Source: a virus. From it: DNA of 64,000 nucleotides. Numbering within the stretch: the stretch's first letter is position 1; every line of letters starts with the position of its first letter. Where the stretch lies: the IMG/VR virus record IMGVR_UViG_3300025789_000028, positions 28,060 through 92,059 of that record; one strand, given 5' to 3'. The notes beneath the pieces are model-generated. The model saw only the letters and a program-made list of their open reading frames with translations, was not told where the DNA came from and searched no databases. The translations under genes and the position numbers were made by a program. Shown piece after piece: positions 32,180 to 56,776 of this stretch.

Positions 32180-32253
32180 TGGAGCGGGATACCAGAATCG
32201 AACTGGTCACTAAACCTTGGCAAGGTTTCGTTTTACCGATAAACTAATCCCGC
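32180..32253 (-). tRNA. tRNA-Gly (GCC)
   Basis: A full cloverleaf with GCGGGAT acceptor, anticodon loop CTTGCCA (GCC) and encoded CCA. It is the last tRNA of the leftward array. Confidence 0.9.
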
Positions 32254-32262
32254 ATTATTTTC

Positions 32263-32652
32263 TCAATATAGAGGTAAGCCTTGCGCTTTTCTTCCTCTAC
32301 CTTTATTTGCACCGCCTAAAAATTCAGTTTGACTATGACAATTAGGACATATCAATCTTAAATTATCAGGACTATCATTTCCCGGATCACCGTTTACATG
32401 ATCTACATGAAGTACTAGCTTTTTGTTTTGCCATTCACTTACACCGCATACTTCACATTTATAACCTCTGTCTTCTGCTAAATATCTCCTAGCAGTTGAC
32501 CTTTCAATTCTTTTCAAATTACCGTTATACCATTCTTTTTTATGTAAAAAAGATTTATGCAATCCGTTACATACATTAGAACAATATTTTCCTGTTTTAT
32601 GATGAGGATTAAATTCAAAATCCTTATTACAATTTACACAATTTGCTTTCAT
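32263..32652 (-). CDS. HNH endonuclease with zinc-finger N-terminus
   Basis: The 129-residue protein has a Cys-rich N-terminal finger (CVNCNKDFEF, YCSNVC) and an HNH core: CEVCGVSEW, HVDHVNGD, NLRLICPNCHSQT. These are free-standing homing endonucleases common in phage genomes and often placed beside tRNA genes. A TATAAATA box (32673-32680) and AAGGAG ribosome site precede ATG 32652. It is paralogous to 44157-44501. Confidence 0.88.
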   Translation of the reverse strand: MKANCVNCNKDFEFNPHHKTGKYCSNVCNGLHKSFLHKKEWYNGNLKRIERSTARRYLAEDRGYKCEVCGVSEWQNKKLVLHVDHVNGDPGNDSPDNLRLICPNCHSQTEFLGGANKGRGRKAQGLPLY

Positions 32653-32672
32653 AGTAGAGTTCTCCTTTAGAG

Positions 32673-32680
32673 TATTTATA
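32673..32680 (-). promoter_or_regulatory. Late promoter box TATAAATA
   Basis: The box is 20 bases upstream of the HNH gene ATG 32652, with AAGGAG in between. Confidence 0.6.
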
Positions 32681-32708
32681 CTCTACCGCTAAAAACGCAT
32701 AATTTTAT

Positions 32709-32891
32709 TTAGCTTCCTGTTAAGCTATATAAAATAATTGTGTTAAACGTTTCACCCTCAAGATTCAAATTAAGTGTGATTTGATCATTGTTAATTCCAT
32801 ACATATCAGGTTCAATAGCATATGACAATGTAAGATTGTCTTTTAAATACTGCTTAATTTGTGCTTGTAGTGTCGGGTCTAATGGATCCAT
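32709..32891 (-). CDS. Small hypothetical protein (60 aa)
   Basis: ATG 32891 follows an AGGAAAT ribosome site. The 60-residue product starts MDPLDPTLQAQIKQYLKDNL and has a beta-rich second half (DQITLNLNLEGETFNTIILY). It is probably a small conserved phage protein; function unknown. Confidence 0.6.
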   Translation of the reverse strand: MDPLDPTLQAQIKQYLKDNLTLSYAIEPDMYGINNDQITLNLNLEGETFNTIILYSLTGS

Positions 32892-32908
32892 GATATTTCC
32901 TATGTAAT

Positions 32909-32982
32909 TGGATGCGGGTGACAGATTCGAACTGCCGATGCACCTGGCTTATGAGACCGGTGTGGTGACCACCCTACCCGCG
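32909..32982 (-). tRNA. tRNA-Met (CAT), initiator-like
   Basis: Anticodon loop CTCATAA. The first acceptor position is C facing A (CGCGGGT against ACCCGCA), the unpaired 1-72 feature typical of bacterial initiator tRNA. CCA is encoded. Confidence 0.8.
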
Positions 32983-32990
32983 TAATTTAT

Positions 32991-33173
32991 TTATTCATCT
33001 TTGACAGTATCTTTAACTGCCCGAACGTTTTCTTTTTCTTCTACGACCTCTTCCGGTAACGGTGGAGGTACGTATCTTGGTTTAGGTTCTTTCTTTCCAA
33101 AGATAGCATCCATTCTATCATCGAATTCAGACAGAGGAATGCTCATTGGTCTTGGCCTATCACCCTTACTCAT
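32991..33173 (-). CDS. Small charged Pro-rich protein (60 aa)
   Basis: ATG 33173 overlaps the stop of the isomerase gene (TAATG). The product has a basic start (MSKGDRPRPMSIPLSEFDDR), a Pro-rich middle (YVPPPLPEE) and an acidic-basic tail. It is probably disordered. Function unknown. Confidence 0.55.
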   Translation of the reverse strand: MSKGDRPRPMSIPLSEFDDRMDAIFGKKEPKPRYVPPPLPEEVVEEKENVRAVKDTVKDE

Positions 33174-33442
33174 TATGCAGTCCTCTTGACCAAATGATAA
33201 CCAAACTGTGTTTGAACCGGTCCAACAACAACACCTACCGGGTTATTGAATGCTGCCTCTTCAAAAGGTTTTACCATTTGTCCTCGACCAAATAATCCTA
33301 AATCGCCACCTTGACGACCACTTGGGCACTTGCTATGTTGACTTGCTAATATAGCAAAATCAGCGCCGGACTTGATTTGCTCTTGTAAGTTAACTGCTTC
33401 TGCTAAAGAAGGTACTAAAATGTGACTTGCTCTTACCTGCAT
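33173..33442 (-). CDS. Parvulin-type peptidyl-prolyl isomerase
   Basis: The 89-residue protein is a single rotamase domain: RASHILVPSLAEA start, FAILASQHSKCPSGRQGGDLG core, FGRGQMVKPFEEAAF and a GPVQTQFGYHLVKR end. These match PpiC-type parvulins, which isomerise Xaa-Pro bonds. A role in folding virion proteins, such as Pro- and Gly-rich fibres, is inferred. It overlaps the next gene by TAATG. Confidence 0.9.
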   Translation of the reverse strand: MQVRASHILVPSLAEAVNLQEQIKSGADFAILASQHSKCPSGRQGGDLGLFGRGQMVKPFEEAAFNNPVGVVVGPVQTQFGYHLVKRTA

Positions 33443-33451
33443 AAATTTCCT

Positions 33452-33595
33452 TTATTCTGCTTCTACGTTAGTTGTATTGCCTGCACGTCCGCCGCCTGTT
33501 TGTTGCTCTGGTTGTGCTGTTGGGCTTTTTTTGTTTTGTGTGTATAAGAAAGCGCCGATGATAATTGCTACGATTAATGCTCCAATGATAAACAT
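33452..33595 (-). CDS. Small single-pass membrane protein (47 aa)
   Basis: ATG 33595 follows AAAGGAG and a GATAAATA late box (33622-33629). The first 19 residues (MFIIGALIVAIIIGAFLYT) are a membrane anchor. The rest is a polar, Gly/Gln-rich cytoplasmic or periplasmic tail. It starts an operon with the parvulin gene. Function unknown. Confidence 0.6.
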   Translation of the reverse strand: MFIIGALIVAIIIGAFLYTQNKKSPTAQPEQQTGGGRAGNTTNVEAE

Positions 33596-33621
33596 AATAA
33601 TCTCCTTTGTGTTGAGACTAA

Positions 33622-33629
33622 TATTTATC
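33622..33629 (-). promoter_or_regulatory. Candidate late promoter box (GATAAATA)
   Basis: The box lies 26 bases upstream of ATG 33595, with AAAGGAG in between. Confidence 0.55.
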
Positions 33630-33656
33630 ATAATTCTATAGCATAAAAAATATGAA

Positions 33657-33732
33657 TGGTAGAAGTGGTGAGACTCGAACTCACGATAAACACCGTATGA
33701 AGGTGGCGCATTAGCCGCTATGCTACACTTCT
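33657..33732 (-). tRNA. tRNA with CAT anticodon (Met or lysidine-type Ile)
   Basis: Full cloverleaf with AGAAGTG acceptor, TTCATAC anticodon loop and encoded CCA. Bodies of the CAT tRNAs differ; this one could be the Ile-2 tRNA that reads AUA, but identity cannot be settled by eye. Confidence 0.8.
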
Positions 33733-33738
33733 ATTGTT

Positions 33739-33813
33739 TGGTGCGACCTACTGGATTCGAACCAGTCCCGTAAGAATTATGAGTTCTCGGCACTACCTCT
33801 ATGCTAAAGTCGC
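33739..33813 (-). tRNA. tRNA-Met (CAT)
   Basis: Cloverleaf with GCGACTT acceptor, CTCATAA anticodon loop on a GAGAA/TTCTT stem, and encoded CCA. One of four CAT tRNAs in the array. Confidence 0.85.
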
Positions 33814-33836
33814 ATAATATTTGGTGGACTGTGTAG

Positions 33837-33858
33837 AAACCTATGAATTCATAGGTTT
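33837..33858. repeat. Perfect 22-base palindrome
   Basis: An exact self-complementary sequence centred on GAATTC lies between a tRNA gene and the gene ending at 33875. Either strand could form a hairpin of up to 9 bp. A T-run follows only on the plus strand, where no gene is transcribed. Confidence 0.6.
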
Positions 33859-33874
33859 TTATGTATAATACAGA

Positions 33875-34066
33875 TTAAGCGTAAGATTCTTGGCCAGCAA
33901 TCTGCAAAACACAAAGTAATGTGGTAGCCTCATTAAAGATTTTAGATTGTAAACCTAAAGCCTGTTGTTCTGACGCATATTCATGCGCCTGCGCTAGTGT
34001 TTCAAATTCAGTATAATTTACTGAAAGAACATCATCGATCCAATTTTGTACTGATACTGTAAACAT
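33875..34066 (-). CDS. Small hypothetical protein (63 aa), paralogue of the next
   Basis: The product has EFETLAQAHEYASEQQALGLQSKIFNEATTLL, which parallels EFDSRDEAVAHATEHHGRGF and following residues in the next gene; both end in Tyr-Ala. A recent or ancient small-gene duplication is likely. Function unknown. Confidence 0.6.
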   Translation of the reverse strand: MFTVSVQNWIDDVLSVNYTEFETLAQAHEYASEQQALGLQSKIFNEATTLLCVLQIAGQESYA

Positions 34067-34068
34067 GA

Positions 34069-34278
34069 TTATGCGTATGTGTTAATTTCTGCGTCAACAA
34101 AGAATTCATATAACAAGTGATAATACTCATCATATACCTTTGTACTGAACCCACGTCCGTGATGTTCTGTTGCGTGTGCAACTGCTTCATCTCTTGAATC
34201 AAATTCAAAAGCCTGTACATTCAATGCGCCATCGTCTCCGTAACTATGAATGTGTGAAATGTGTTTTCTACCGTGCAT
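34069..34278 (-). CDS. Small His-rich hypothetical protein (69 aa)
   Basis: ATG 34278 begins MHGRKHISHIHSYGDDGALN. The C-terminal 45 residues align with the gene at 33875-34066. His clusters near the N-terminus could bind metal. It lies three bases upstream of its paralogue. Confidence 0.6.
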   Translation of the reverse strand: MHGRKHISHIHSYGDDGALNVQAFEFDSRDEAVAHATEHHGRGFSTKVYDEYYHLLYEFFVDAEINTYA

Positions 34279-34289
34279 GTTATTCTCCG

Positions 34290-35339
34290 TTATTTAAATC
34301 TTTTGTACCATATCTCGGCACTCTTATTAGTATATTTAGTCAAACTAAACTGATTTAGTCTAACATTGATAGCAGGAAAGTTATATGCACGATTCAATGC
34401 TTTAGTAATATCTGCGCTATCAGTAGGGTCAGAACACCCTGTTGCTAACCACGGAATTTCTGTTGTGCCAACTAAAGGGATACCCTCACTAATCAAATCT
34501 GCACCAACAATATTAAATGTTTCACTGAAATTACATTGCATGCCTATGTCCATATCAGAACACAAATGCAAAAATTCTTCATGGGGTGCCCAATCATGTC
34601 TAATTAATCTATGCCCTGCACTATAAAGATGTGCAAAGAAGCCCTCTAGATTATGTAGTACAGGTTGACCTTTCATTTCAACACGACCTGCATTGATATG
34701 AAAATGCAATTTTTTACCTTGTTGAGTAGCAAAGTCAAGTGCGGCTACTGCTTGAACCATGTGATTCTTTAATGGTCTAACAGCACCAAAACATCCTACA
34801 TCAATATGGTCCTTAGTCTTATAAATTTTTCTTGGTGGACTAAATTTCTGTGGATAGTAATTGGGTAGATAAAAGACTTTCTTCAATGTTTCACTATCAC
34901 TCCAACGATTAACAGTTTGTAAGTAAGTTCTAATTTCACGCAACATTCTAGGTGCGTTTACACCAATACTAATGTTTTCAAAATGACTATAGTCACCGAT
35001 CCAATTCATTGCCATGCCTTCGCCAGCCATGAAAGGCATCTCACTATGAATGCGAACAATCCACTTTACATTAGGATGTAATTTACAAAGTGATGTGAAC
35101 TTACTGGGAACAACCCATAATGCTTCAATAATAACATAGTCTGGATTGTGTTTAGTAACTAGTCTGTCAATACAATTATTATCGATTGCAACTTCCATGA
35201 CTGATTTAATACCAACTTTATTCAGCATTCTATTAACAAATGATGCAGAATTGTATAGACCTGTAGTCAATCCAATTTTAGTATCTACTTTTTCACTATA
35301 ATTTTCTCTGCGTTTGAGAATGAATAAAATTTTCGACAT
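34290..35339 (-). CDS. GT-B (family 4-like) glycosyltransferase
   Basis: ATG 35339 is chosen over an upstream TTG; a GATAAATA box is at 35368-35375. The 349-residue protein has two Rossmann halves. The second begins near IDVGCFGAVRPLKNHMVQAVAALDFA (about residues 177-202), and SETFNIVGADLISEGIPLVGTTEIPWL near residues 283-309 is the nucleotide-sugar EX7E-like region. Transfer of a sugar to DNA, virion or host glycan is possible. Confidence 0.75.
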   Translation of the reverse strand: MSKILFILKRRENYSEKVDTKIGLTTGLYNSASFVNRMLNKVGIKSVMEVAIDNNCIDRLVTKHNPDYVIIEALWVVPSKFTSLCKLHPNVKWIVRIHSEMPFMAGEGMAMNWIGDYSHFENISIGVNAPRMLREIRTYLQTVNRWSDSETLKKVFYLPNYYPQKFSPPRKIYKTKDHIDVGCFGAVRPLKNHMVQAVAALDFATQQGKKLHFHINAGRVEMKGQPVLHNLEGFFAHLYSAGHRLIRHDWAPHEEFLHLCSDMDIGMQCNFSETFNIVGADLISEGIPLVGTTEIPWLATGCSDPTDSADITKALNRAYNFPAINVRLNQFSLTKYTNKSAEIWYKRFK

Positions 35340-35367
35340 GTATGGTGTATTGCTTTCGTTAGTCAAA

Positions 35368-35375
35368 TATTTATC
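35368..35375 (-). promoter_or_regulatory. Candidate late promoter box (GATAAATA)
   Basis: The box is 28 bases upstream of ATG 35339. Confidence 0.5.
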
Positions 35376-35413
35376 GGAATAAACTACGACTGTATATTAA
35401 GTTAATGTGACAA

Positions 35414-35487
35414 TGGTACCCAGTAGAGGTAACGCTCCTCTGTCGCACGATTATCAGTCGTGTGCTCTACTTTTGAGCTAACCGGGT
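35414..35487 (-). tRNA. tRNA-Ile (GAT)
   Basis: ACCCGGT acceptor, CTGATAA anticodon loop (GAT), encoded CCA. Confidence 0.9.
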
Positions 35488-35493
35488 AAATTT

Positions 35494-35571
35494 TGGAGGT
35501 GCGAGTCAGATTTGAACTGACGGTTTTACGGATTTGCAATCCGTTGCATTGGACCACTCTGCCACCGCACC
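35494..35571 (-). tRNA. tRNA-Cys (GCA)
   Basis: GGTGCGG acceptor, TTGCAAA anticodon loop on an ACGGA/TCCGT stem, encoded CCA. The D arm is long. Confidence 0.88.
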
Positions 35572-35766
35572 GTGTTAATGATTTAGTTTTGCTATTGCGC
35601 CCAAAACACAATGAATGTCTAAATGCAGTCTATGAGCAATTTCAGTTGCGTCTAGATGCCTATCTAATAACTCTTTAACTTGCATTACGATGTATGACAT
35701 AGAATCTCCCGTCTATACATATATAACGCCTCAGAAGTCATTCCTGTTGACATGTTTTGGGTATCT

Positions 35767-35856
35767 TGGTGGAGAGCCAGGGAGTCGAACCCTGTGACCG
35801 TATTACTACGGTCTACGGATTAGCAATCCGCTGCATTACCATCCTGCCCGCTCTCC
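35767..35856 (-). tRNA. tRNA-Ser (GCT)
   Basis: Class II tRNA with long variable arm, GGAGAGC acceptor, anticodon GCT and encoded CCA. Confidence 0.9.
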
Positions 35857-35863
35857 ATTATCT

Positions 35864-35951
35864 TGGAGGAAGATGTGAGATTCGAACTCACGGGACCTTT
35901 CGGACCTCTAGTTTTCAAGACTAGTGCAATCGACCACTCTGCCAATCTTCC
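35864..35951 (-). tRNA. tRNA-Ser (TGA)
   Basis: Class II tRNA with GGAAGAT acceptor, CTTGAAA anticodon loop (TGA), long variable arm, encoded CCA. Confidence 0.9.
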
Positions 35952-36305
35952 GTATACTATATTTAACTATAAAAAATTACATTGTTGAATTTGTAAGTTG
36001 TGCCACCATCGTTATTGACACCATTCACCCGTGTAATTAAGCCGGCCGGGACTCGGTACGTTACTTGGGCTCCATCCAGATGATACTCATTGTATGCCGA
36101 TCCCACTCAAGCGATCAGCCGGGTAACGACCCCGCAACCTTCTACTAACTTAGTCCTTCGAAGAAACCTCATTAGCGTGACTTTACTTGCTAACACTTAC
36201 AAAACTTGGCGTATGAAGCTGGCCTTGCACCCTGCTATCACCATACCTCACTTTTCAGGAAGGTTTTACTGGCACCATCACTCTTCTGGCTTTCATACAT
36301 AATAT
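35952..36305 (-). other. Unassigned 354-base interval inside the tRNA array
   Basis: No convincing coding region or canonical tRNA is visible. The central part is GC-richer than the surroundings and contains TTTGTAAGT and ACTTACAAA as a 9-bp inverted repeat (near 35989 and 36193). Several short hairpins are possible on the minus strand. A structured non-coding RNA or tRNA relics are possible. Confidence 0.4.
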
Positions 36306-36390
36306 TGGTGGAGATGGTTGGACTTGAACCAACAATGCCAGGGGCGGCTGATTTACAGTCAGCTGGGGTTACCAATTTTCCTACATCTCC
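36306..36390 (-). tRNA. tRNA-Tyr (GTA)
   Basis: Class II tRNA with GGAGATG acceptor, CTGTAAA anticodon loop (GTA) and encoded CCA. Confidence 0.9.
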
Positions 36391-36454
36391 ATTAATTTGA
36401 ATGGTTATTACTAACTCAAGCAAGGGCGTGTGACCGTTGTACTTGAATTAGAAA

Positions 36455-36518
36455 ACCATATAGAAACACACTATGCCACGCTCTGAACCTGGACTCTTAG
36501 TAATGTGTTTTTATATGG
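36455..36518 (-). ncRNA. Long-stem hairpin H1 of the CCATATA family
   Basis: Arms CCATATAGAAACACA and TGTGTTTTTATATGG pair over 15 positions with one wobble or mismatch. The core is about 32 bases and contains AGGTTCAGAG, like a T arm. On the minus strand the 5' arm begins with CCA. A partly overlapping inverted repeat lies at 36401-36459. Confidence 0.6.
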
Positions 36519-36636
36519 CGTATCAACAATGCCGTATGCATCCACCATTGCGTCTGTAATTAGTATCCGAGATTCCGAGCCTCGATATCTATCCCGTAGG
36601 TAGCAGTCCCGTGTATGACTTACTAAAAACTGATAT
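36519..36636 (-). other. Spacer between hairpins H1 and H2, tRNA-like features
   Basis: On the minus strand TTAGTA and TACTAA enclose a GC-rich core with a CGAGGCTCGGAATCTCG hairpin. The minus-strand 3' end runs into the CCA of hairpin H1. No canonical cloverleaf was found. Confidence 0.35.
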
Positions 36637-36637
36637 A

Positions 36638-36734
36638 CCATATAGAAACACACTATGGGATTCGAACCCTTCGTTCAGCATCAGAACTTCAAACCTACCC
36701 ACCTGCTAGTAGGAGTTAATGTGTTTTTATATGG
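36638..36734 (-). ncRNA. Long-stem hairpin H2, encloses a tRNA-like relic
   Basis: The same 15-bp arms as H1 enclose about 67 bases. On the minus strand the core has a D-arm-like CCTAC/GTAGG stem, a GTTCTGATGCTGAAC stem-loop and an intact T arm (GGGTTCGAATCCC). The anticodon-like loop lacks U33 and there is no variable loop, so it is not a normal tRNA. The 5' arm begins with CCA. Confidence 0.6.
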
Positions 36735-36862
36735 AATCCATTGTGTGTAGGGCATCGAAACCTACATTAAGCCCCATAACGGGCCTTTATTACCACTTAT
36801 AAGAACACGGATTCTTGGGGTCATGACTCCCCAATATGGACAGGTTAATTACTCCTGTTTTT
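36735..36862 (-). other. Spacer between hairpins H2 and H3, tRNA-like features
   Basis: On the minus strand ATCCGTG and AATGGAT can pair, a TGTAGG/CCTACA stem carries TTTCGATGC, and the segment ends GGATT followed by the CCA of hairpin H2. Loop sizes do not match a canonical tRNA. Confidence 0.35.
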
Positions 36863-36934
36863 ACCATATAGAAACACACTACTCTCTTTATAGTCGAAGC
36901 CCCGGACGCTTCTCGTAATGTGTTTTTATATGGT
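36863..36934 (-). ncRNA. Long-stem hairpin H3 overlapping the tRNA-Met CCA end
   Basis: Arms are ACCATATAGAAACACA and TGTGTTTTTATATGGT. The core holds GGGGCTTCGACT, like a T arm. On the minus strand the 5' arm starts within the ACCA of tRNA-Met (36931-37005). Confidence 0.6.
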
Positions 36935-37005
36935 GGTTATAGAAGGTAACGATCCTTCCTATGAGGCTTATGAGACCCCTGCATATCCGTCTATGCTATA
37001 TCACC
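36931..37005 (-). tRNA. tRNA-Met (CAT)
   Basis: GGTGATA acceptor with one mismatch, CTCATAA anticodon loop and encoded CCA. The CCA is also the first part of hairpin H3. Confidence 0.8.
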
Positions 37006-37009
37006 AAAT

Positions 37010-37087
37010 TGGCTCCCCATCTAGGTGACGCTCCTAGCTAATCTCGGATTAACAGTCCGCCGCCTACACCTAGTTTGCTTAAGGGGA
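37010..37087 (-). tRNA. tRNA-Asn (GTT)
   Basis: CTGTTAA anticodon loop on a CGGA-type stem, TCCCCTT acceptor with one mismatch, CCA encoded. A second Asn tRNA is at 40547. Confidence 0.85.
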
Positions 37088-37098
37088 ATAAAACTTGT

Positions 37099-37174
37099 TC
37101 GGAGTAGTAGGATTCGAACCTACGACCTCCTTGCTCTTAAAGCAGGTGCACTACCCAGGCTGTGCTACACTCCG
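37099..37174 (-). tRNA. Pro-type tRNA body with TAA anticodon
   Basis: The body (CGGAGTG acceptor with C1-G72 and A73, GTAGCACAGCCTGG D arm, CCTGC anticodon stem) closely matches tRNA-Pro, including the array's own tRNA-Pro at 40266. The loop reads TTTAAGA in place of TTTGGGA. That gives anticodon TAA, which would read the Leu codon UUA. The anticodon stem has a C-A mismatch, and ACA stands where CCA is encoded in the others. It may be a decayed or re-assigned tRNA. Confidence 0.7.
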
Positions 37175-37179
37175 AAAAA

Positions 37180-37245
37180 TGGAGCAGTCATTACGATTCC
37201 CACGTAAATGTTAGGTGGACCCCAACACGGTTACTATCCGACTGC
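37180..37245 (-). tRNA. Minimal 66-base tRNA-like RNA
   Basis: GCAGTCG and TGACTGC form a 7-bp acceptor stem followed by T and encoded CCA. A GTTGG/CTAAC stem carries a 7-base loop GGTCCAC, and TTACG/CGTAA carries a 7-base loop TGGGAAT. Only a 3-bp D-arm-like element is possible. The T loop lacks TTC and position 33 is G, so ordinary decoding is doubtful. Confidence 0.5.
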
Positions 37246-37252
37246 AAAAAGA

Positions 37253-37335
37253 TGGTGCCCCAAGCGAGACTCGAACTCGCACGCCTAAGCACTGGCTTCT
37301 AAGACCAGCGTGTCTACCAATTCCACCATCGGGGC
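37253..37335 (-). tRNA. tRNA-Leu (TAG)
   Basis: Class II tRNA, GCCCCGA acceptor, CTTAGAA anticodon loop (TAG), encoded CCA. Confidence 0.9.
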
Positions 37336-37342
37336 ATAACTT

Positions 37343-37416
37343 TGGAGCGGGGTAAGAGAATCGAACTCTCAGCATTAGCTTGGAAGGCTAAGGTATTACC
37401 ACTATACGAACCCCGC
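37343..37416 (-). tRNA. tRNA-Gly (TCC)
   Basis: GCGGGGT acceptor, CTTCCAA anticodon loop (TCC), encoded CCA. Confidence 0.9.
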
Positions 37417-37464
37417 AAAATTGATTATGTATTTATATAGGAGGCTATGCCTCCAAAATTCTTA

Positions 37465-37547
37465 TACCATATAGAAACACACTTGATATAGTAAATTACT
37501 TTATCACGGATGAACCCGAATTTAGTCAAATGTGTTTCTATATGGTA
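37465..37547 (-). ncRNA. Long-stem hairpin H4 overlapping the tRNA-Lys CCA end
   Basis: This copy has a perfect 17-bp stem (TACCATATAGAAACACA with its exact complement), extended by TTGA/TCAA after one wobble. The core includes CGGGTTCATCCG. On the minus strand the 5' arm starts in the T-ACCA end of tRNA-Lys (37543-37619). Confidence 0.65.
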
Positions 37548-37619
37548 GAAGCACAGGGACTTGAACCCTGAACCTACCGGTTAAAAGCCGGTTGCTCTAG
37601 CCAGTTGAGCTATACTTCC
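37543..37619 (-). tRNA. tRNA-Lys (TTT)
   Basis: GGAAGTA acceptor, CTTTTAA anticodon loop, encoded CCA shared with the arm of hairpin H4. Confidence 0.9.
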
Positions 37620-37625
37620 ATAATA

Positions 37626-37700
37626 TGGTCCCTCCGGTCAGAGTCGAACTGACGCTTGTCGGATTAAGAGTCCGCTATGCTACCATAACATCTCGAAGGG
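37626..37700 (-). tRNA. tRNA-Lys (CTT)
   Basis: CCCTTCG acceptor, CTCTTAA anticodon loop (CTT), encoded CCA. Confidence 0.9.
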
Positions 37701-37812
37701 ATAGTACGTATTAATTTGTCTTTTACGTGCCATCCCTAGACCATACATGGAAGTCTAAAGATGACACTATCGTTTACCTGAACGTTTCATGTCATTTCCT
37801 TTATTAAAAACT
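37701..37812 (-). other. Spacer with two predicted hairpins
   Basis: On the minus strand ATGACA...TGTCAT encloses a CGTT/AACG inner stem, and TAGAC...GTCTA encloses CCAT/ATGG. No ORF or tRNA is visible. A small structured RNA or processing spacer is possible. Confidence 0.35.
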
Positions 37813-37889
37813 TGGCGCACCGTAGGGGACTCGAACCCCTGGCCTCAACAGTGACAGTGTTGCGATCTAACCAACTGATCTAACGGTGC
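37813..37889 (-). tRNA. tRNA-Asp (GTC)
   Basis: GCACCGT acceptor, CTGTCAC anticodon loop (GTC), discriminator G and encoded CCA. Confidence 0.92.
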
Positions 37890-37897
37890 AAATTCTT

Positions 37898-37972
37898 TGG
37901 TACTGGGTACGGGAATCGAACCCGTCTTACAAACGTGAAAGGCTTGTGTCCTAACCGATAGACGAACCCAGC
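37898..37972 (-). tRNA. tRNA-Glu (TTC)
   Basis: GCTGGGT acceptor, CTTTCAC anticodon loop (TTC), encoded CCA. Confidence 0.9.
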
Positions 37973-37976
37973 AATT

Positions 37977-38208
37977 AATCACTATATGTAAGTATACTAA
38001 AGGAACCATTGTACATCTATCTCTACCACCAAGTAACGTCTACTTGGGGCCTGTACGGTCATTACATCCTATATTATCCGTCATGCTCGGTCACATATGT
38101 ACTCATGCACTTCATGAACTCTGACTATTGGGCGTAGCCGTCACTACTGTCCCCGCACAAAGCTCCTAACGGTATAGGTAACCTTTATAATACTTACATA
38201 TAGTGATT
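37977..38208 (-). ncRNA. Structured RNA of about 230 bases with a 27-position terminal stem
   Basis: The first 27 bases (37977-38003) pair with the last 27 (38182-38208) at 25 positions. The 178-base core is GC-richer, has no ORF or canonical tRNA, and lies between a boxA-type leader and tRNA-Glu. I do not recognise tmRNA, RNase P or 6S signatures. It is transcribed leftward from the promoter at 38277. Confidence 0.6.
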
Positions 38209-38237
38209 GCTTCACAGCAATGTATATGATGGTTTAA

Positions 38238-38266
38238 TTTTTAAAGAACGTTGTTGATTTCTCAAC
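38238..38266 (-). promoter_or_regulatory. boxB/boxA-like antitermination leader (copy 1)
   Basis: On the minus strand GTTGAGAAATCAAC (38266-38253) forms a 5-bp hairpin with a GAAA loop. Three bases later GTTCTTTAAAAA (38249-38238) follows. The latter matches the boxA of proteobacterial rRNA leaders. It starts about 4 bases after the predicted transcription start. Confidence 0.65.
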
Positions 38267-38276
38267 TCATGCTATG

Positions 38277-38305
38277 ATTGTATCACAGCAACGAATTATT
38301 GTCAA
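38277..38305 (-). promoter_or_regulatory. Sigma70-type promoter for the tRNA array (TTGACA-17-TACAAT)
   Basis: -35 at 38305-38300, -10 at 38282-38277. It drives the structured RNA and the tRNA run from Glu leftward. Confidence 0.75.
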
Positions 38306-38312
38306 CCTTTTT

Positions 38313-38511
38313 GTAATGTAGTTTAGGCTGATACCTGATAAATGATAGTAGGATTCGAACCTACACGCTGTTTCCAACAGGGACCGGATATGGCCCCTAT
38401 GTCTACCAATTTCATCATATCAACTCCCTTCTATTCGCTCGGCAAAGCTACTGTCAGGGGTCAAGTTTCAGACTGCTTTCAGATTGCCGTCATCAGCCTA
38501 AACTACACTAC
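38313..38511 (-). ncRNA. Long-stem element enclosing a class II tRNA-like
   Basis: TGTAGTTTAGGCTGAT (38317-38332) is the exact inverted repeat of 38492-38507, and three more pairs extend it. The element encloses the tRNA-like at 38340-38424 and about 65 bases of unassigned sequence. It resembles the 37977-38208 element in plan. Confidence 0.55.
38340..38424 (-). tRNA. Class II tRNA-like with abnormal anticodon arm
   Basis: The D arm (GATGAAATTGGTAGACAT) and T arm (GTAGGTTCGAATCCTAC) resemble tRNA-Leu, and CTGTT/AACAG forms the variable arm. The anticodon loop reads CATATCC (TAT, no U33) on a mismatched stem. The end lacks encoded CCA. It is probably a decayed or specialised tRNA. Confidence 0.5.
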
Positions 38512-38515
38512 AAAA

Positions 38516-38557
38516 TTTTAAAGAACCTTGTTGAGTAGTACGATCACTTTTCTCAAC
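38516..38557 (-). promoter_or_regulatory. boxB/boxA-like antitermination leader (copy 2)
   Basis: GTTGAG and CTCAAC (38557-38530) form a hairpin with a larger loop, followed by GTTCTTTAAAA (38526-38516). The order matches copies 1 and 3. Confidence 0.55.
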
Positions 38558-38567
38558 TCATGAATGT

Positions 38568-38596
38568 ATTATAGCACCGAATCGATTTATTGTCAA
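38568..38596 (-). promoter_or_regulatory. Perfect sigma70-type promoter (TTGACA-17-TATAAT)
   Basis: -35 at 38596-38591, -10 at 38573-38568, with the TTGACAATAAATC extended block. It precedes leader copy 2. Confidence 0.85.
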
Positions 38597-38614
38597 ATTC
38601 TTGTTTGTACTACT

Positions 38615-39235
38615 TTATGCTACAAATTCCTCACACTCCTTTAGGGTAGTGATAATTTTCAAATTAGGAATCTGTCTTTTAATCACATCTAATTTTTCTT
38701 TTTGGACCAATACCGCATGCGGATTCTTGGGGTCAAGATACAAGTCCTGAATGGGTAAATAGAAGTCAGGAAAATAGTTATGAGTCTTACCTGATCTGTC
38801 AACCCATTTAATAGGTTCAGTAGGCCTTATCCAAACAACACCTAGACTGTCTAATCTCCTCGCAAGACTTTCTTCCCACGAAGAATCTAATAACACTTGA
38901 GTTCCGTCAACTTGAGTATAATACCTAGTTGATTTGACTAGTCTTCGGTGTCCCGAAGCTAGTGCTTTGTCTCTTATTTTTTCCAAAGATTCAGGAGTAT
39001 GTTTATAGTCTTTTCGGGTACTAGCTTTCCCCTTCATACTAGAAACGATTATTCTTCCTTCATCTTTTGCTTTTACAAACTGATTTCTAGGATTTTTAAT
39101 ACATTCCCTAGCTGAAACTAATTTTTCAGCATATTCAATTCGCTTAGGATTCTCATTACACCATCTACTATGGTTTGCTTTATTAGCAGGTGACAATCCC
39201 TCAAATTCTTTTTTACAATGCTTACATATAAACAT
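38615..39235 (-). CDS. Free-standing VSR-like (PD-(D/E)xK) homing endonuclease
   Basis: ATG 39235 is preferred; a longer frame would run into tRNA-Arg. The 206-residue protein has a Cys-rich N-terminal finger (CKHCKKEF, then HSRWC), a NUMOD3-like KHTPESLEKIRDKALASG helix, and a nuclease core (SSWEESLARRL, HNYFPDFYLP). The acidic DFYLP and later Lys-Glu-Lys suit a PD-(D/E)xK site. It is located between tRNA-Arg and tRNA leader promoters, a typical homing site. Confidence 0.75.
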   Translation of the reverse strand: MFICKHCKKEFEGLSPANKANHSRWCNENPKRIEYAEKLVSARECIKNPRNQFVKAKDEGRIIVSSMKGKASTRKDYKHTPESLEKIRDKALASGHRRLVKSTRYYTQVDGTQVLLDSSWEESLARRLDSLGVVWIRPTEPIKWVDRSGKTHNYFPDFYLPIQDLYLDPKNPHAVLVQKEKLDVIKRQIPNLKIITTLKECEEFVA

Positions 39236-39248
39236 ATATACCCTTAAA

Positions 39249-39324
39249 TGGCGCGACCGGAGAGATTCGAACTCCCGACAGACCGGGTAGAAGCCGGTTA
39301 CTCTATCCACTGAGTTACGGTCGC
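39249..39324 (-). tRNA. tRNA-Arg (TCT)
   Basis: GCGACCG acceptor, CTTCTAC anticodon loop (TCT), discriminator G, encoded CCA. Confidence 0.9.
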
Positions 39325-39387
39325 ATATATCTATTTATATATAAATGAAGTTTTTTGTACTATCCGTTGAACGAACGCCAGAATAAA

Positions 39388-39474
39388 TGGTGCCCGGAGC
39401 CGGAATCGAACCGGCACGCTCTTTCAAGCGAGAGATTTTAAGTCTCTTGTGTCTACCTATTTCACCATCCGGGC
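39388..39474 (-). tRNA. tRNA-Leu (TAA)
   Basis: Class II tRNA, GCCCGGA acceptor, CTTAAAA anticodon loop (TAA), encoded CCA. It begins four bases after leader copy 3. Confidence 0.92.
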
Positions 39475-39478
39475 TAAT

Positions 39479-39507
39479 TTTTTAAAGAACGTTGTTGATT
39501 TCTCAAC
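39479..39507 (-). promoter_or_regulatory. boxB/boxA-like antitermination leader (copy 3)
   Basis: GTTGAGAAATCAAC (39507-39494) and GTTCTTTAAAAA (39490-39479) have the same sequence and spacing as copy 1. Confidence 0.65.
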
Positions 39508-39517
39508 TCATGCTATG

Positions 39518-39546
39518 ATTGTAGCACCGACTTGATTTATTGTCAA
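39518..39546 (-). promoter_or_regulatory. Sigma70-type promoter (TTGACA-17-TACAAT)
   Basis: -35 at 39546-39541, -10 at 39523-39518, extended block TTGACAATAAATC. It drives tRNA-Leu and tRNA-Arg through leader copy 3. Confidence 0.8.
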
Positions 39547-40643: not shown

Positions 40644-40672
40644 ATTATACATGACCTAACTTTTTATGTCAA
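40644..40672 (-). promoter_or_regulatory. Perfect sigma70-type promoter (TTGACA-17-TATAAT)
   Basis: -35 at 40672-40667, -10 at 40649-40644. It drives Asn-Thr-Ala-Pro-Val. No boxA-type leader follows this promoter. Confidence 0.85.
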
Positions 40673-40673
40673 G

Positions 40674-41234
40674 TTAAATCTGTATAATTCTACTATGCTT
40701 TGGAACACCTGATAACAAATAATCCATTTGATCTGCAAGTATAGTGCGGTTCTGTAGGATCATGTTTTCATAGTGATTAGGTGCATAAGGTACATATAGC
40801 AATTCAAGTCGTGCTTCTTTAAGAGTTAGACAACCTTTCTTTTGATTACATACTTTACATGCAGTAACCACGTTTGTCCATTCATCCAAACCACCTTTGA
40901 ATCTAGGCATGATATGATCACGACTTAGATGTGAGAAGTTGGGGAAGTGTCCCCCACAATATGCACAAACATGTCGGTCTCTAGCAAACAATGTTCTGTT
41001 TGTCAATGCCACTTTACTGTGCTTAGTAAGGTTAAATCCTGAACCTCTAACTGCTATAATGCTAGTAGTTTCTAAATAACTATCAACACCATTCTTTTGT
41101 GTTCCACCGTGATATCTTGCAACTGTTTCACCTAAACTCCAGGCTACTTGATTCTTTGCATGATAACAGATGGCTTCATCATAGTTAACCCATGCTCGGG
41201 GTATACCTGATATGTCTAGGGCTAGTACTGCCAT
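40674..41234 (-). CDS. HNH endonuclease (186 aa)
   Basis: The protein has a zinc-binding HNH core: CAYCGG near residue 106, LSRDHIMPRFKGG near 121-133, and NVVTACKVCNQKKG near 139-152. The N-terminal 90 residues are typical of the phage-type HNH family and may recognise DNA. An AAGGAGA ribosome site precedes ATG 41234. It lies between two tRNA transcription units and overlaps no tRNA. Confidence 0.88.
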   Translation of the reverse strand: MAVLALDISGIPRAWVNYDEAICYHAKNQVAWSLGETVARYHGGTQKNGVDSYLETTSIIAVRGSGFNLTKHSKVALTNRTLFARDRHVCAYCGGHFPNFSHLSRDHIMPRFKGGLDEWTNVVTACKVCNQKKGCLTLKEARLELLYVPYAPNHYENMILQNRTILADQMDYLLSGVPKHSRIIQI

Positions 41235-42096: not shown

Positions 42097-42125
42097 AGTT
42101 TAGTACAACTTTGATTTATTGTCAA
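42097..42125 (-). promoter_or_regulatory. Sigma70-type promoter of the tRNA array (TTGACA-17-TAAACT)
   Basis: -35 at 42125-42120, -10 at 42102-42097, extended block TTGACAATAAATC. It is the first promoter after the terminator at 42146-42180. Confidence 0.7.
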
Positions 42126-42457: not shown

Positions 42458-42486
42458 ATTGTAGCGCCACATTGTTTATTTGTCAA
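42458..42486 (-). promoter_or_regulatory. Sigma70-type promoter (TTGACA-17-TACAAT)
   Basis: -35 at 42486-42481, -10 at 42463-42458. TTGACAAATAAAC is a variant of the extended block. It drives the 58-residue protein. Confidence 0.75.
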
Positions 42487-45479: not shown

Positions 45480-46367
45480 CTATTGATTTAATCTAAATCT
45501 TATATACTCTGTTATATGATCTGCAACATCGATTTGACAATACTTTTCAAATCCACTAAAACCTGGATTACTGTTTGCTTCACATACTACAAACCCATGT
45601 TCACTAAACAACAAGTCTATGCCTGCAATGTTTAGTTCCAACACTCTTGCTGTTTCTCTAGCAAGATATTCAATTTCAGGTGTTATTTCATAATTGCTAC
45701 CAGTGCCGCCGCCAGTAATATTTGCTCTAAAGTCTCCCTCAGGAGCTGTTCTACGCATAGCACCAATAACTTTACCGCCAACAACAAACACACGCAAATC
45801 TTCACCGGGTTTGGCTCCCATGTATTCTTGCACAATCATTGTTTTCTTTGCGCCGAGTGTATCAATGAACTCCATTAACTTTTTATAGTCACGTTTCTTT
45901 TCGCACAGATAAACACCTTCACCATAACTACCAGTAACAAGTTTAACTACACAAGGGAAACCAATATGTTTTTCTACTAAACCATCATCAATGGGATAGC
46001 GCACCATCATTGTCTTTGGAATTGCAATTTTATTTGCAGCAAGAATTTGACCTGTTCTTAATTTGTCTCTAACAATGTTAATTGGTTTACTTGGATTAAC
46101 ACAAGGTACTCCCATTTCTTCAAATTGACGAATGATTGCTAACTGAAAGGGCAATATACCTGCACCTATTCTAGTCAATACTAAGTCAGGCTTGTCAAAG
46201 TCTTGTCCTTTATACTTAACTGATTGAGTTAAATCTTGACTGACAACAATGTCAAAGTCGTCAGGATGTCCTACCACTGCTTGAATATTTTTATTTGCAA
46301 AACTTTCAACCAATCGGTTAGTTTCGTATTCGTTTCGTTCTACTTTAGATAGTATTAATACTGTCAT
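45480..46367 (-). CDS. RimK-like ATP-grasp ligase
   Basis: The 295-residue protein has the ATP-grasp layout of RimK, which adds glutamates to ribosomal protein S6. Features are FPCVVKLVTGSYGEGV (about residues 138-153), IVQEYMGAKPGEDLRVFVVG (174-193), RANITGGG and VCEANSNPGFSGFEK (metal-binding Glu/Asn). The length is close to bacterial RimK (about 300). Poly-glutamylation of a host ribosomal protein would fit the translation theme. Other ATP-grasp ligases cannot be excluded. Confidence 0.85.
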   Translation of the reverse strand: MTVLILSKVERNEYETNRLVESFANKNIQAVVGHPDDFDIVVSQDLTQSVKYKGQDFDKPDLVLTRIGAGILPFQLAIIRQFEEMGVPCVNPSKPINIVRDKLRTGQILAANKIAIPKTMMVRYPIDDGLVEKHIGFPCVVKLVTGSYGEGVYLCEKKRDYKKLMEFIDTLGAKKTMIVQEYMGAKPGEDLRVFVVGGKVIGAMRRTAPEGDFRANITGGGTGSNYEITPEIEYLARETARVLELNIAGIDLLFSEHGFVVCEANSNPGFSGFEKYCQIDVADHITEYIRFRLNQ

Positions 46368-48385: not shown

Positions 48386-48854
48386 CTGTTATCTCCATCC
48401 ATGTATGATCACCCATGTATTTAACTTGGGTCATATAATCATAGTTTTTTGGTTTGCCGGTTGACCAATCATTAGGTCCTAATGATACTAATAATGTTTT
48501 ATTCTTTCTGTTATCCCACACTAACCAATAAGACTGGCCCATTACAATTTGAAACTGATATTCTGCGGCGTAGACCATATCGGTTACATCTAGTCTACGC
48601 TTGATATCACTTGCTTGTTTTTGTAATACAGTAACTAACTCCATGATACGATCATATTCTTGCTGGGCATACATCCTAGCATGATTAATCATTATATCTT
48701 TTTGTTTAGTGACTGGCACTAAATCAAATTTAGGCCCCCCTGCTTCCGTAGGATAGGGGGTTACATTTCTGTTAAAAAAGTTAACTAAATTGTTGCCAAG
48801 GGTAGCATCATAGCTATCCTTGCCCTTGGCACTGTTACTCTTGGGTGTGTCCAT
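48369..48854 (-). CDS. DUF2452 protein (161 aa)
   Basis: ATG 48854 is chosen over a longer frame that would run far into metK. The core (NLVNFFNRNVTPYPTEAGGPKFDLVPV, then YQFQIVMGQSYWLVWDNR and GPNDWSTGKP) is the DUF2452 pattern. Function is unknown; a helical N-terminal region suggests nucleic-acid or protein binding. It overlaps metK by 20 bases. Confidence 0.78.
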   Translation of the reverse strand: MDTPKSNSAKGKDSYDATLGNNLVNFFNRNVTPYPTEAGGPKFDLVPVTKQKDIMINHARMYAQQEYDRIMELVTVLQKQASDIKRRLDVTDMVYAAEYQFQIVMGQSYWLVWDNRKNKTLLVSLGPNDWSTGKPKNYDYMTQVKYMGDHTWMEITDDRDI

Positions 48855-49956
48855 TGCACGAATCAAAGAGGTCAATCTTTTCCCACGGGAGATAGGACTT
48901 ACCAAAGTGTCCGTAGTTTGTAGTAGAACTATAAATAGGTCTAAACAAATCAAACTTATCAATGATACCCTTAGGAGTCAAATCAACATTTTTGATAAGC
49001 CAATCTGTCAAGTCTCTACTATTTTCACTGCTTTCAACATACACACTCATGGGCTGTGACATACCAATAGCATAACTCAATTGAACTGTTGCCCAATCAC
49101 TACGTCCTGATGCAACAATATTCTTAGCAAGATAACGTGCCATATATGCCGCACTACGGTCTACTTTAGTGGGGTCTTTTCCTGAGAATGCTCCTCCACC
49201 ATGTGGGCTATAACCACCGTAAGTATCAACAATAATTTTTCTGCCAGTAAGACCAGTGTCACCATCAGGCCCCCCAATAACAAAGCGACCGGTAGGGTTG
49301 ATAAAAAATTCTGTAGTGTCATCAACTAACTCCTTAGGTAAAATATCTCTAATGAAAGATTCTACATTTTGTCGTACAAAGTCAATAGTCACATCAGCCG
49401 AATGTTGTGTAGAGCAAACAACTTTAGCAACACGCTTAACGGTTGAATCATCATTATACTCCATTGTCACTTGGCTTTTAGCATCAGGACCCAACCAAGT
49501 TACGCCGTTTTTGCGTGTAGTTGACAATCCTTGAACAATCTTATGACTCCAATAAATTGCTGAAGGCATATAGTCTTCGGTTTCTTTACAAGCATAACCA
49601 AACATTAAACCTTGATCACCTGCACCAAATGTGTCAGTACCCAATGCAATATCAGCACTTTGCCCATGTAACAAGTTAGCAATATTTAACGTTTGCCAAT
49701 GAAAGCCTTCTTGTTCGTAGCCAATGTTCTTAACTACCTTTCTTACTAGATACTCTAAATCCAAGTCGTCCATAGTAGGACCTTTGTACTCTCCTGCTAC
49801 AACAACTTGATTAGTAGTAACTAGTGTTTCGCAAGCGCAACGAAATGCAGAATTGTTATGCGACATAAACGCATCTAAAACTGCATCACTAATTGCATCT
49901 GCTACCTTATCTGGGTGTCCCTCTGCGACACTCTCGCTTGTAAAATAATATGACAA
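48835..49956 (-). CDS. metK: S-adenosylmethionine synthetase
   Basis: The 373-residue enzyme makes SAM from ATP and methionine. Signature motifs are present: SVAEGHPDKVADAISDAVLD (about 8-27), GAGDQGLMFGYA and GGGAFSGKDPTKVDRS. Length is slightly below bacterial MetK (about 384). Several probable SAM-dependent methyltransferases in the window could use its product. Phage MetK is uncommon but known. Confidence 0.95.
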   Translation of the reverse strand: MSYYFTSESVAEGHPDKVADAISDAVLDAFMSHNNSAFRCACETLVTTNQVVVAGEYKGPTMDDLDLEYLVRKVVKNIGYEQEGFHWQTLNIANLLHGQSADIALGTDTFGAGDQGLMFGYACKETEDYMPSAIYWSHKIVQGLSTTRKNGVTWLGPDAKSQVTMEYNDDSTVKRVAKVVCSTQHSADVTIDFVRQNVESFIRDILPKELVDDTTEFFINPTGRFVIGGPDGDTGLTGRKIIVDTYGGYSPHGGGAFSGKDPTKVDRSAAYMARYLAKNIVASGRSDWATVQLSYAIGMSQPMSVYVESSENSRDLTDWLIKNVDLTPKGIIDKFDLFRPIYSSTTNYGHFGKSYLPWEKIDLFDSCNGHTQE

Positions 49957-54912: not shown

Positions 54913-55679
54913 GATATTTTCCTTATATAATATTCTTCTTTGGGTTTGTTAAATTTAAAATCTGCGGGCAATTCCCAATCCCACAAACCTGTTTCAATGC
55001 GTTTCATAATTTTATCAAATATAATTTTGTTAAACTCGGGAGTAAAATGACCTGCCATTAATTCTTTGTTTTCTTCCCATATCATTTGTGAATAATCTTT
55101 AGGTAGTCCTAATAATTCAGTTTGCAAATATTGCATAGCCATCAATGACATAGGGTTTAATGTTGAATTATAACTTTTTGGAGTATCACCGAACCCTAAT
55201 CTAATAGATATTTCTTCTGACATAGAAAAACAAGGAATTATTAATACGTTGTTGTCCAACGATATAATTTTCTCTATCATCAATGATGCTACTGTTTGAT
55301 TAAACTCATCACATGATGCTAGAAACCATCCTTTAATATTATTTACTTGTTTGTCAGATATACTATTAGGTTGAGTTTTACAATATACTTCTAAACTAGA
55401 CAAACTAGGTAAAAAATTAATATGTCCATGATTTGAAACTACGGGTTTAATATATCTGCCAGGCTCTGTTACTAAGAAAACATTTAAATCATAATCAGTG
55501 TGATGTTTTATAAAATTGTTATAAGAAAAATATATCGATGATCCTGGCGCCCCGTAATTATATAATTCAGCATTATAATGCTTTTTTAATAAACTACTCC
55601 AGTGATAGTTATCCATGCCTTGATTACTTTTATCATATGCAGTATTCGCAAAACTATCACCGTATACGGCTATTTTCAT
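54909..55679 (-). CDS. SGNH-hydrolase-like protein
   Basis: The 256-residue protein has a block I motif VYGDSFAN (about residues 4-11) and NYGAPGSS (block II-like). The usual C-terminal DxxH is not obvious. It is distantly like the pair at 5706 and 6329. It lies between nrdB and glutaredoxin genes, with ATGA overlaps on both sides. Confidence 0.65.
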   Translation of the reverse strand: MKIAVYGDSFANTAYDKSNQGMDNYHWSSLLKKHYNAELYNYGAPGSSIYFSYNNFIKHHTDYDLNVFLVTEPGRYIKPVVSNHGHINFLPSLSSLEVYCKTQPNSISDKQVNNIKGWFLASCDEFNQTVASLMIEKIISLDNNVLIIPCFSMSEEISIRLGFGDTPKSYNSTLNPMSLMAMQYLQTELLGLPKDYSQMIWEENKELMAGHFTPEFNKIIFDKIMKRIETGLWDWELPADFKFNKPKEEYYIRKIS

Positions 55680-56776
55680 AACTCCGGCAACTCATCATAG
55701 TCAATAGTGTCACTCATTACACCAATAACATAATTTGTTGATTCGCTTTCTTGTAATGCAGTTTGTTTCTTGCTAGTGTCACTATGCTTATTGAACCACG
55801 GAATAGGACTATTCTTTGGTGCAGGATTTTGATACTTAATACCGATTTCTTTCAATGCACTTACTGCTGTATAATCAACAAAGTCTTTTAAGATGTTTGC
55901 ATTCAGTCCAATAACAGGACCTTTCTTAAACAAGTATTCAGCCCATTCTTTTTCTTCACGAATAACATCCATGTACAATTGATAGACTTCCTGTTCGCAT
56001 TCTTGTTTAATAGCAGCAAATCGGCTATCTTCTTTAACAACTTGATTAATTAAGAATGCTGTCCAGCCCTTGTGTAGTAACTCATCTTGTAAAATTAAAC
56101 TAATGATGTTGCCGTTACCAATAAAGATTTTATTCTCAACCATTGCAAGACTTGTAGCAAATGACACCATGAATCTAAATGCTTCCAATGCATAACTTGC
56201 ATGTAGTGCCATATAGATTGCCTTGATGTGATCTGCTTCTGCAATATATCCGTCTAATTCTTTGGCACAATTTAATCTGTGCAAATCATCATAGTACTTG
56301 CCTACACTACTAGCCATGTCAACAATCTCTTTGGTGTCATGAATAGTGTTAAACACATCTTTGGGTACATTATAGATGTTACGAATGATATGGCTGTAAC
56401 TACGACTATGAATGTTTGTTTCAAAGAACGACCAATTACTAATCAATGCTTCTAGTTCAGGAATAGATACAACTGGCCCAAATACTTGATTTGGCGCACG
56501 ACCTTGTAAACTGTCTAATGCAGTTTGTCTTAACAAGTTGCTAGTAAAGATATGCTTGACTGCATCGCTTGCATCTTTGAAATCACCAGCGTCCTTGGTT
56601 AGAGAAATTTCTTCTGGAACCCAAAAGAAACCACGGGCTGTTGTTTCAAAGTTTGCAATCTTTTGATACTTGACTTCTTCAAAACGTTGAATGGTAACTG
56701 GGCCTTCGGGGTCCAAGAACATTTTACGTGATAGATAGTCTGTTTTTGTTGTTAAGTTGTATTGTTGTTTGCTCAT
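55676..56776 (-). CDS. nrdB: Ribonucleotide reductase class Ia small subunit
   Basis: The 366-residue protein holds the diiron-tyrosyl radical cofactor that starts nucleotide reduction. Ligand motifs are visible: LDSLQGRAP (Asp), FFETNIHSRSY (Glu, His and radical Tyr), SYALEAFRF (Glu) and LILQDELLHKG (Glu and His). The first helix reads E-T-N-I-H, an ExxxH spacing, where E. coli has ETIH (ExxH). The C-terminus (DYDELPEL) is a large-subunit docking tail. It overlaps its neighbours by ATGA. Confidence 0.93.
   Translation of the reverse strand: MSKQQYNLTTKTDYLSRKMFLDPEGPVTIQRFEEVKYQKIANFETTARGFFWVPEEISLTKDAGDFKDASDAVKHIFTSNLLRQTALDSLQGRAPNQVFGPVVSIPELEALISNWSFFETNIHSRSYSHIIRNIYNVPKDVFNTIHDTKEIVDMASSVGKYYDDLHRLNCAKELDGYIAEADHIKAIYMALHASYALEAFRFMVSFATSLAMVENKIFIGNGNIISLILQDELLHKGWTAFLINQVVKEDSRFAAIKQECEQEVYQLYMDVIREEKEWAEYLFKKGPVIGLNANILKDFVDYTAVSALKEIGIKYQNPAPKNSPIPWFNKHSDTSKKQTALQESESTNYVIGVMSDTIDYDELPEL

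Follow-up and report, generated by a model that had tools for sequence, protein, structure and literature searches.

Results

Three leaders of common design in a viral tRNA array

The window analysed here is a stretch of 64,000 nucleotides from a 92,059-base viral record. Its minus strand carries an array of 32 tRNA genes called by ARAGORN, running from 41802 to 32180, within which three leaders, A (39546-39480), B (38596-38516) and C (38305-38239), each head a different payload. The leaders, all on the minus strand, share the plan TTGACA-N17-TA[CT]AAT, 10 nt, hairpin, 3 nt, GTTCTTTAAAA. Spacing is constant throughout (17 nt between the promoter hexamers, 10 nt from the -10 to the hairpin, 3 nt from the hairpin to boxA), the hairpin precedes boxA in each leader and TG precedes the -10; the transcription start is predicted only. 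The features of the region are as follows.

42097..42125, minus strand: promoter before the first tRNA group, TTGACA-17-TAAACT, without boxA
40644..40672, minus strand: strong promoter before tRNA-Asn, TTGACA-17-TATAAT, without hairpin or boxA; an internal contrast
39518..39546, minus strand: promoter A, -35 at 39546-39541 and -10 at 39523-39518; TTGACA, 17 nt, TACAAT
39494..39507, minus strand: 5' hairpin A, GTTGA-GAAA-TCAAC, boxB-like, with a GNRA loop
39480..39490, minus strand: boxA A, GTTCTTTAAAA
39249..39474, minus strand: payload unit A, tRNA-Leu(taa) and tRNA-Arg(tct)
38568..38596, minus strand: promoter B, -35 at 38596-38591 and -10 at 38573-38568; perfect TTGACA-17-TATAAT
38530..38557, minus strand: 5' hairpin B, GTTGAG, 16-nt loop, CTCAAC
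38516..38526, minus strand: boxA B, GTTCTTTAAAA
38310..38515, minus strand: payload unit B, structured RNA (z -5.9) in which a long helix, TGTAGTGTAGTTTAGGCTGAT...ATCAGCCTAAACTACATTACA, closes around a weak tRNA Asp(atc)
38277..38305, minus strand: promoter C, -35 at 38305-38300 and -10 at 38282-38277; TTGACA, 17 nt, TACAAT
38253..38266, minus strand: 5' hairpin C, GTTGA-GAAA-TCAAC, same as hairpin A
38239..38249, minus strand: boxA C, GTTCTTTAAAA
37975..38230, minus strand: first payload unit C, a conserved undescribed ncRNA with a long closing helix (z -4.5)
32180..37972, minus strand: remainder of the array downstream of unit C, with 17 tRNA genes in about 6 kb

An earlier note on this locus had claimed that three promoters are followed at near-constant spacing by a hairpin and then a boxA-like motif, and that two of the hairpins are identical with a GAAA loop. 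Both claims hold. The coordinates bear out the first, and the full promoter-to-boxA pattern, observed three times, is never seen in 200 local shuffles; as for the second, hairpin A equals hairpin C and hairpin B is longer. Promoter, hairpin and boxA, together with their order and spacing, are shown directly by the sequence. The exact GTTCTTTAAAA occurs three times in the whole record, always in these leaders, and fits the published consensus GYTCTTTAANA (PMC5725501). When up to two mismatches are allowed, the window contains 55 copies against 46.8 expected, which is no enrichment, and the evidence therefore depends on exact copies in context. The boxC sequence (TCTGTGTGGG) expected about 18 nt past boxA is absent behind all three copies. 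Upstream of promoter A lies an A-rich stretch (ATGCCAAAATTAATTTAAAAAGTTG). Of about six strong promoters on this strand in the neighbourhood of the array, only three have boxA; the three further ones (at 42486, 42125 and 40672) lack it, so that the signal is selective within the array.

Payloads of the leaders

In unit A, tRNA-Leu(taa) starts 5 nt past boxA. The tRNA-Asp(atc) call in unit B (38339-38425, minus strand) scores 29.8 bits, barely at threshold, and is without CCA; it resembles a degenerate class II tRNA within the long helix. In one relative, a leader similar to leader B stands ahead of a tRNA-Leu called by ARAGORN. The unit C ncRNA shows, in order, the blocks GGTTACC..CCGTTAGG..GTAATGACCGT..AGACGTT..ATAGATG..CAATGGTTCC. 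It has no Rfam match at E<=5, and Rfam supplied no name for the other RNAs of the array. Behind unit C, no minus-strand promoter scoring 11/12 or better was found between 32180 and 37972, and there is no ORF of 100 aa or more from 35367 to 38614.

RNAs of the unit C type (37990-38180, minus strand, in the window; also in several relatives) lie directly behind boxA leaders and have a long closing helix, with GGTTACCTA.ACCGTTAGG, GTAATGACCGT.CAGGC, AGACGTT and ATAGATG.ACAATGGTTCC as invariant blocks. This type follows 10 of 81 tRNA-linked leaders in total. The sequence signature of GOLLD (Rfam RF02032) is found behind 7 of the 81, and GOLLD itself lies downstream of boxA leaders in five relatives, in one of them after three tRNAs. 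Often located close to tRNA islands, GOLLD is a large RNA with no known function, and cryo-EM shows it forming cages (PMC12286853); boxA leaders are conceivably its promoter and leader in related phages. One of these relatives (L045, 754-1160) also has a permuted tmRNA match (RF04321, 98 bits) within its tRNA array.

Repeated hairpins with arms like CCATATAAAAACACATTA / TAGTGTGTTTCTATATGG occur on the minus strand at about 36930-36470 and 37545-37460, some of them enclosing tRNA-like pieces, and relatives have small RNAs between their tRNAs with similar arms on either side. Further untranslated, apparently structured stretches lie at about 36300-35990 (minus strand), with terminal complementarity GTATGAAAGC/GCTTCATAC and TTTGTAAGT/ACTTACAAA. 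Between the tRNA genes sit HNH endonuclease ORFs (40674-41234; 32263-32652 and 38615-39310, both minus strand), which are probably homing endonucleases, along with a weak match to phage endonuclease I. Elsewhere on the minus strand of the window are genes probably for an S-adenosylmethionine synthetase (48835-49956), both subunits of a class I ribonucleotide reductase (57872-60181 and 55676-56776) and a RimK-like ATP-grasp protein (45480-46367).

boxA leaders recur ahead of tRNA genes in uncultured phages

A scan of IMG/VR for a promoter followed by boxA yielded at least 110 distinct leaders, of which 110 were analysed. As these are only a sample of the matches, we compared real and permuted boxA by their association with tRNA genes and not by total count. 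A tRNA gene lies within 1 kb downstream on the same strand for 78 of the 110 leaders, as opposed to none of 66 obtained with permuted boxA letters; for 45 of the 110 the distance is 100 nt or less, most commonly 14-19 nt. The association with tRNA arrays is thus shown.

The hairpin recurs with it. Between the -10 and boxA, 52 of the 81 tRNA-linked leaders carry a hairpin with a GNRA loop and a stem of at least 4 bp, where shuffling predicts 0.8; the same hairpin is seen in one of 29 boxA matches without a tRNA and in one of 66 permuted controls. Covariation is shown by an alignment of 32 leaders, in which all five stem pairs change on both sides and 100% are paired, against 2-37% in slid controls. 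Because these leaders were picked for having a hairpin, some of the pairing follows from the selection, whereas the double changes do not. (Likewise, boxA is invariant in the alignment because the scan required it.) The hairpin ends 1-5 nt before boxA in nearly all leaders. Just upstream of the -35 the IMG/VR leaders are A-rich, a stretch that, judged by sequence alone, resembles UP elements.

Searching by hairpin, with boxA left unselected, gave 104 distinct leaders, 43 of which have the exact boxA; five more have GTTCTTTAACA and one has GCTCTTTAAAA, both within the published consensus (PMC5725501), and there are a few other near matches. Most of those lacking boxA belong to one other family (GTTGAGAAATCAACTGCGG...) or form the upstream half of a tandem promoter pair. 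The same hairpin without boxA occurs at several promoters, upstream members of tandem pairs among them (L343, L346, L367, L355, L368, L340). In three cases (L343, L346, L367) a tandem promoter pair precedes tRNAs; its upstream promoter has the hairpin but lacks boxA, and its downstream promoter has boxA or a boxA-like sequence, an arrangement that recalls rrn P1-P2. An unrelated leader family ahead of an ORF (L338, L351, L366, L393 and about 25 others), in which the promoter is followed by GTTGAGAAATCAACTGCGGTG...GGCGATA, was caught by this search and set aside. Separately, in five other viruses, promoter, hairpin and boxA stand 14-25 nt ahead of an ORF, from which a use of boxA on mRNAs might be inferred.

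How general is the arrangement? Among tandem-tRNA viral arrays sampled irrespective of boxA, only 3 of 85 (about 4%) carry boxA no more than 200 nt ahead of a tRNA, where the background is about 0.05 per permuted 11-mer, or about 0.3 given the six boxA spellings allowed; boxA is therefore dispensable for such arrays generally. A covariance model, R1, trained on phage leaders alone (A and C in the training set, B not), recovers one or two sites per contig in 14 viral contigs that range from 45 to 465 kb. These contigs had been chosen for containing the motif, and the lone match in one of them is weak (E 0.08). Under stricter filters, R1 has no match in 14 phage records with or likely with tRNA genes (12 cultured, 2 environmental), among them KVP40, phiW-14, XacN1, GAP32 and T4. 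Given the few boxA copies among sampled arrays and the absence of R1 matches in these records, the boxA leader is a feature of certain groups of phages. When the array and one leader were compared with cultured phages by BLAST, only single tRNAs or chance short matches came back, and MetK as a marker reached no close cultured relative.

Likeness to bacterial rrn leaders

Leader B scores 33 bits (E 1.8e-5) under R1 even though it was outside the training set. Run on two overlapping proteobacterial samples (369 genomes of the class, 399 of the order), R1 matched nine genomes at E<=0.01, and in seven of these the match is an rrn or rrn-like leader or spacer. An adjacent 16S start or 23S identifies it as rrn in five genomes (leaders in three, a position before 23S in two), while two others have multi-copy rrn-like leaders at contig ends. 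The remaining two matches, with no rRNA seen, were taken as chance. R1 found nothing in 80 control loci.

Burkholderiales rrn leaders carry GTTCTTTAAAA or GCTCTTTAACA about 115-270 nt ahead of 16S. An exact scan for the phage hairpin plus boxA in genomes of 84,980 species returned six stretches, four of which are Parasutterella muris contig ends reading TTGACA...TAAAAT...CTTGA-GAAA-TCAAG...GTTCTTTAAAAATTTATCG; the other two have no promoter or tRNA context. The Parasutterella contigs stop short of 16S, and their reading as rrn leaders rests on four near-identical copies. boxC was not seen in the Parasutterella leader either, and may therefore mark only some rrn leaders. Bacterial rrn leaders have the GNRA hairpin less often than the phages do; most of them carry other hairpins, and a search of 274 proteobacterial genomes did not turn up the exact phage promoter-hairpin.

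The likeness to rrn leaders is shown. That leaders A, B and C are of rrn type, with hairpin then boxA, is an inference in which we have high confidence, because boxA associates with tRNA genes where its permuted control does not, the hairpin covaries, and the credible bacterial matches of a model trained only on phages are rrn leaders or 16S-23S spacers. The earlier note's match to the boxA of proteobacterial rRNA operons accordingly stands, on both the consensus and the comparison with rrn leaders. The nut/rrn order it saw in hairpin-then-boxA is upheld in part, fitting E. coli rrnB P2 and not lambda nut. Its suggestion that the leaders were copied from rRNA is unsupported, since the host is unidentified, the exact promoter-hairpin is missing from those 274 genomes and the hairpins of most rrn leaders differ. 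The function it proposed, readthrough of long untranslated tRNA arrays without Rho termination, remains inferred, as the note itself stated.

Discussion

A model and its rivals

We think it likely that leaders A, B and C act as rrn-type antitermination leaders. This reading comes from sequence, without data on transcription or binding: recruitment of Nus factors and resistance to Rho are inferred by analogy with rrn operons, and any aid to folding of the RNA and the hairpin's role are inferred as well. Host sigma-70 RNA polymerase would start at the strong promoter, and the first transcribed bases would fold into a short hairpin at the position of rrn boxB, with boxA following 2-4 nt on. boxA RNA is known to bind NusB-S10 and is reported to be necessary and sufficient for formation of the rrn complex (PMC10250234); here it would bind the host's NusB-S10 and, with NusA, NusG and SuhB, yield a processive, Rho-resistant polymerase. 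Polymerase modified in this way could go on through untranslated tRNA and ncRNA units, a distance of up to about 6 kb in the case of leader C.

Several alternatives deserve consideration. The 5' hairpin might be an independent element for RNA stability or promoter escape, leaving boxA alone as the Nus signal, and we can hardly choose between this and a joint role. Promoters with the same hairpin and no boxA exist, as noted above, and the role of boxB in rrn operons has itself been called puzzling (PMC10250234). Against this speak the tight spacing between hairpin and boxA and an order common to rrn leaders.

Alternatively, a boxA complex may form whose main gain is co-transcriptional folding or processing of structured tRNA and ncRNA precursors, not Rho resistance. 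Deletion of boxA in E. coli cuts 30S activity about 3-fold while growth continues, with a leader-trailer helix following boxA (PMC10250234), and units B and C have long closing helices right after boxA. In about half of the tRNA-linked leaders, however, the tRNA begins 20 nt or less past boxA, which leaves no room for a leader-trailer helix between, and we regard this alternative as unlikely.

Less plausible still is a nut-like system in which the GNRA hairpin would be the binding site of an N-like protein encoded by the phage. In lambda, N binds a boxB that is likewise a small stem-loop (PMC10250234), and the GNRA loop is strongly conserved. Yet hairpin-then-boxA is the reverse of the nut order, the same hairpin type occurs in the bacterial leader of Parasutterella, and none of the scanned proteins was recognised as an antiterminator, though a small, divergent N could escape, proteins of this kind being short and weakly conserved. 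Finally, chance or mere duplication, that is, A/T-rich promoter copies with a meaningless AT-rich 11-mer, might be invoked as leaders A and C are nearly identical, possibly duplicates, and weak boxA matches are common in the AT-rich DNA of the window, but this is contradicted by the permuted control, the covariation and the rrn matches and can be all but discounted.

Why the leaders matter

How phages express kilobase untranslated tRNA arrays that should be exposed to Rho is rarely asked. Read as rrn-type antitermination signals, boxA leaders offer a concrete, testable answer, one that recurs in dozens of uncultured phages, would widen rrn-type antitermination to viral tRNA and ncRNA units and links boxA to GOLLD. 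The boxB-like hairpin, moreover, comes in many natural variants that covary, and these are material on what boxB does in rrn operons. Untranslated arrays led by boxA are known for rrn and CRISPR, and their use for phage tRNAs and ncRNAs is probably new: in the literature searched, which did not cover Stringer 2020, we found no report linking boxA to phage tRNA arrays or GOLLD. A bolder reading, which we offer only as a possibility, is that uncultured phages of a widespread group have a stable-RNA programme of their own, dedicated to tRNA arrays, GOLLD and other ncRNAs. Such a programme would imitate host rRNA transcription by its A-rich element upstream, promoters that are strong or in tandem, a hairpin like boxB, and boxA, and so would compete during infection with host rrn operons for Nus factors.

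Comparison with known boxA systems

The closest known counterpart is the bacterial rrn antitermination leader (boxB-boxA-boxC, as in E. coli rrn P2). In E. coli rrnB P2, TTGACT...TATTAT is followed after about 10 nt by GCCGCT-loop-AGCGGC and, 2 nt on, by TGCTCTTTAACA; the elements stand in the order seen in the phage leaders, at nearly the same spacing. Both kinds have a strong sigma-70 promoter, a hairpin about 10 nt past the -10 and, after 2-4 nt, boxA; both are sometimes followed by a long leader-trailer helix, and tandem promoters occur in some relatives. Unlike rrn leaders, the phage leaders drive tRNA and ncRNA arrays instead of rRNA and lack a boxC sequence, and their hairpin is short with a GNRA loop, whereas that of E. 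coli rrn has a loop of 12 nt.

Lambda nut sites are likewise phage elements that place boxA and a hairpin early in the transcript. There, however, boxA comes before boxB and phage N is needed, whereas in leaders A, B and C the hairpin comes first and the transcript is largely untranslated. The boxA described for suhB (PMC5725501) resembles the phage boxA in lying outside rrn and in sharing the consensus, but it sits close ahead of an ORF, which it represses, while in the window an RNA gene follows boxA. In the boxA leaders of CRISPR arrays (Stringer 2020, cited in PMC7862264), boxA also heads a long untranslated array. The boxA of the Legionella Lens CRISPR array is identical to the phage 11-mer GTTCTTTAAAA, and it raises pre-crRNA about 10-fold and relieves polarity in a synthetic array (PMC7862264). 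Those leaders serve bacterial CRISPR arrays; what lies downstream of leaders A, B and C is not CRISPR repeats but tRNA genes and structured RNA.
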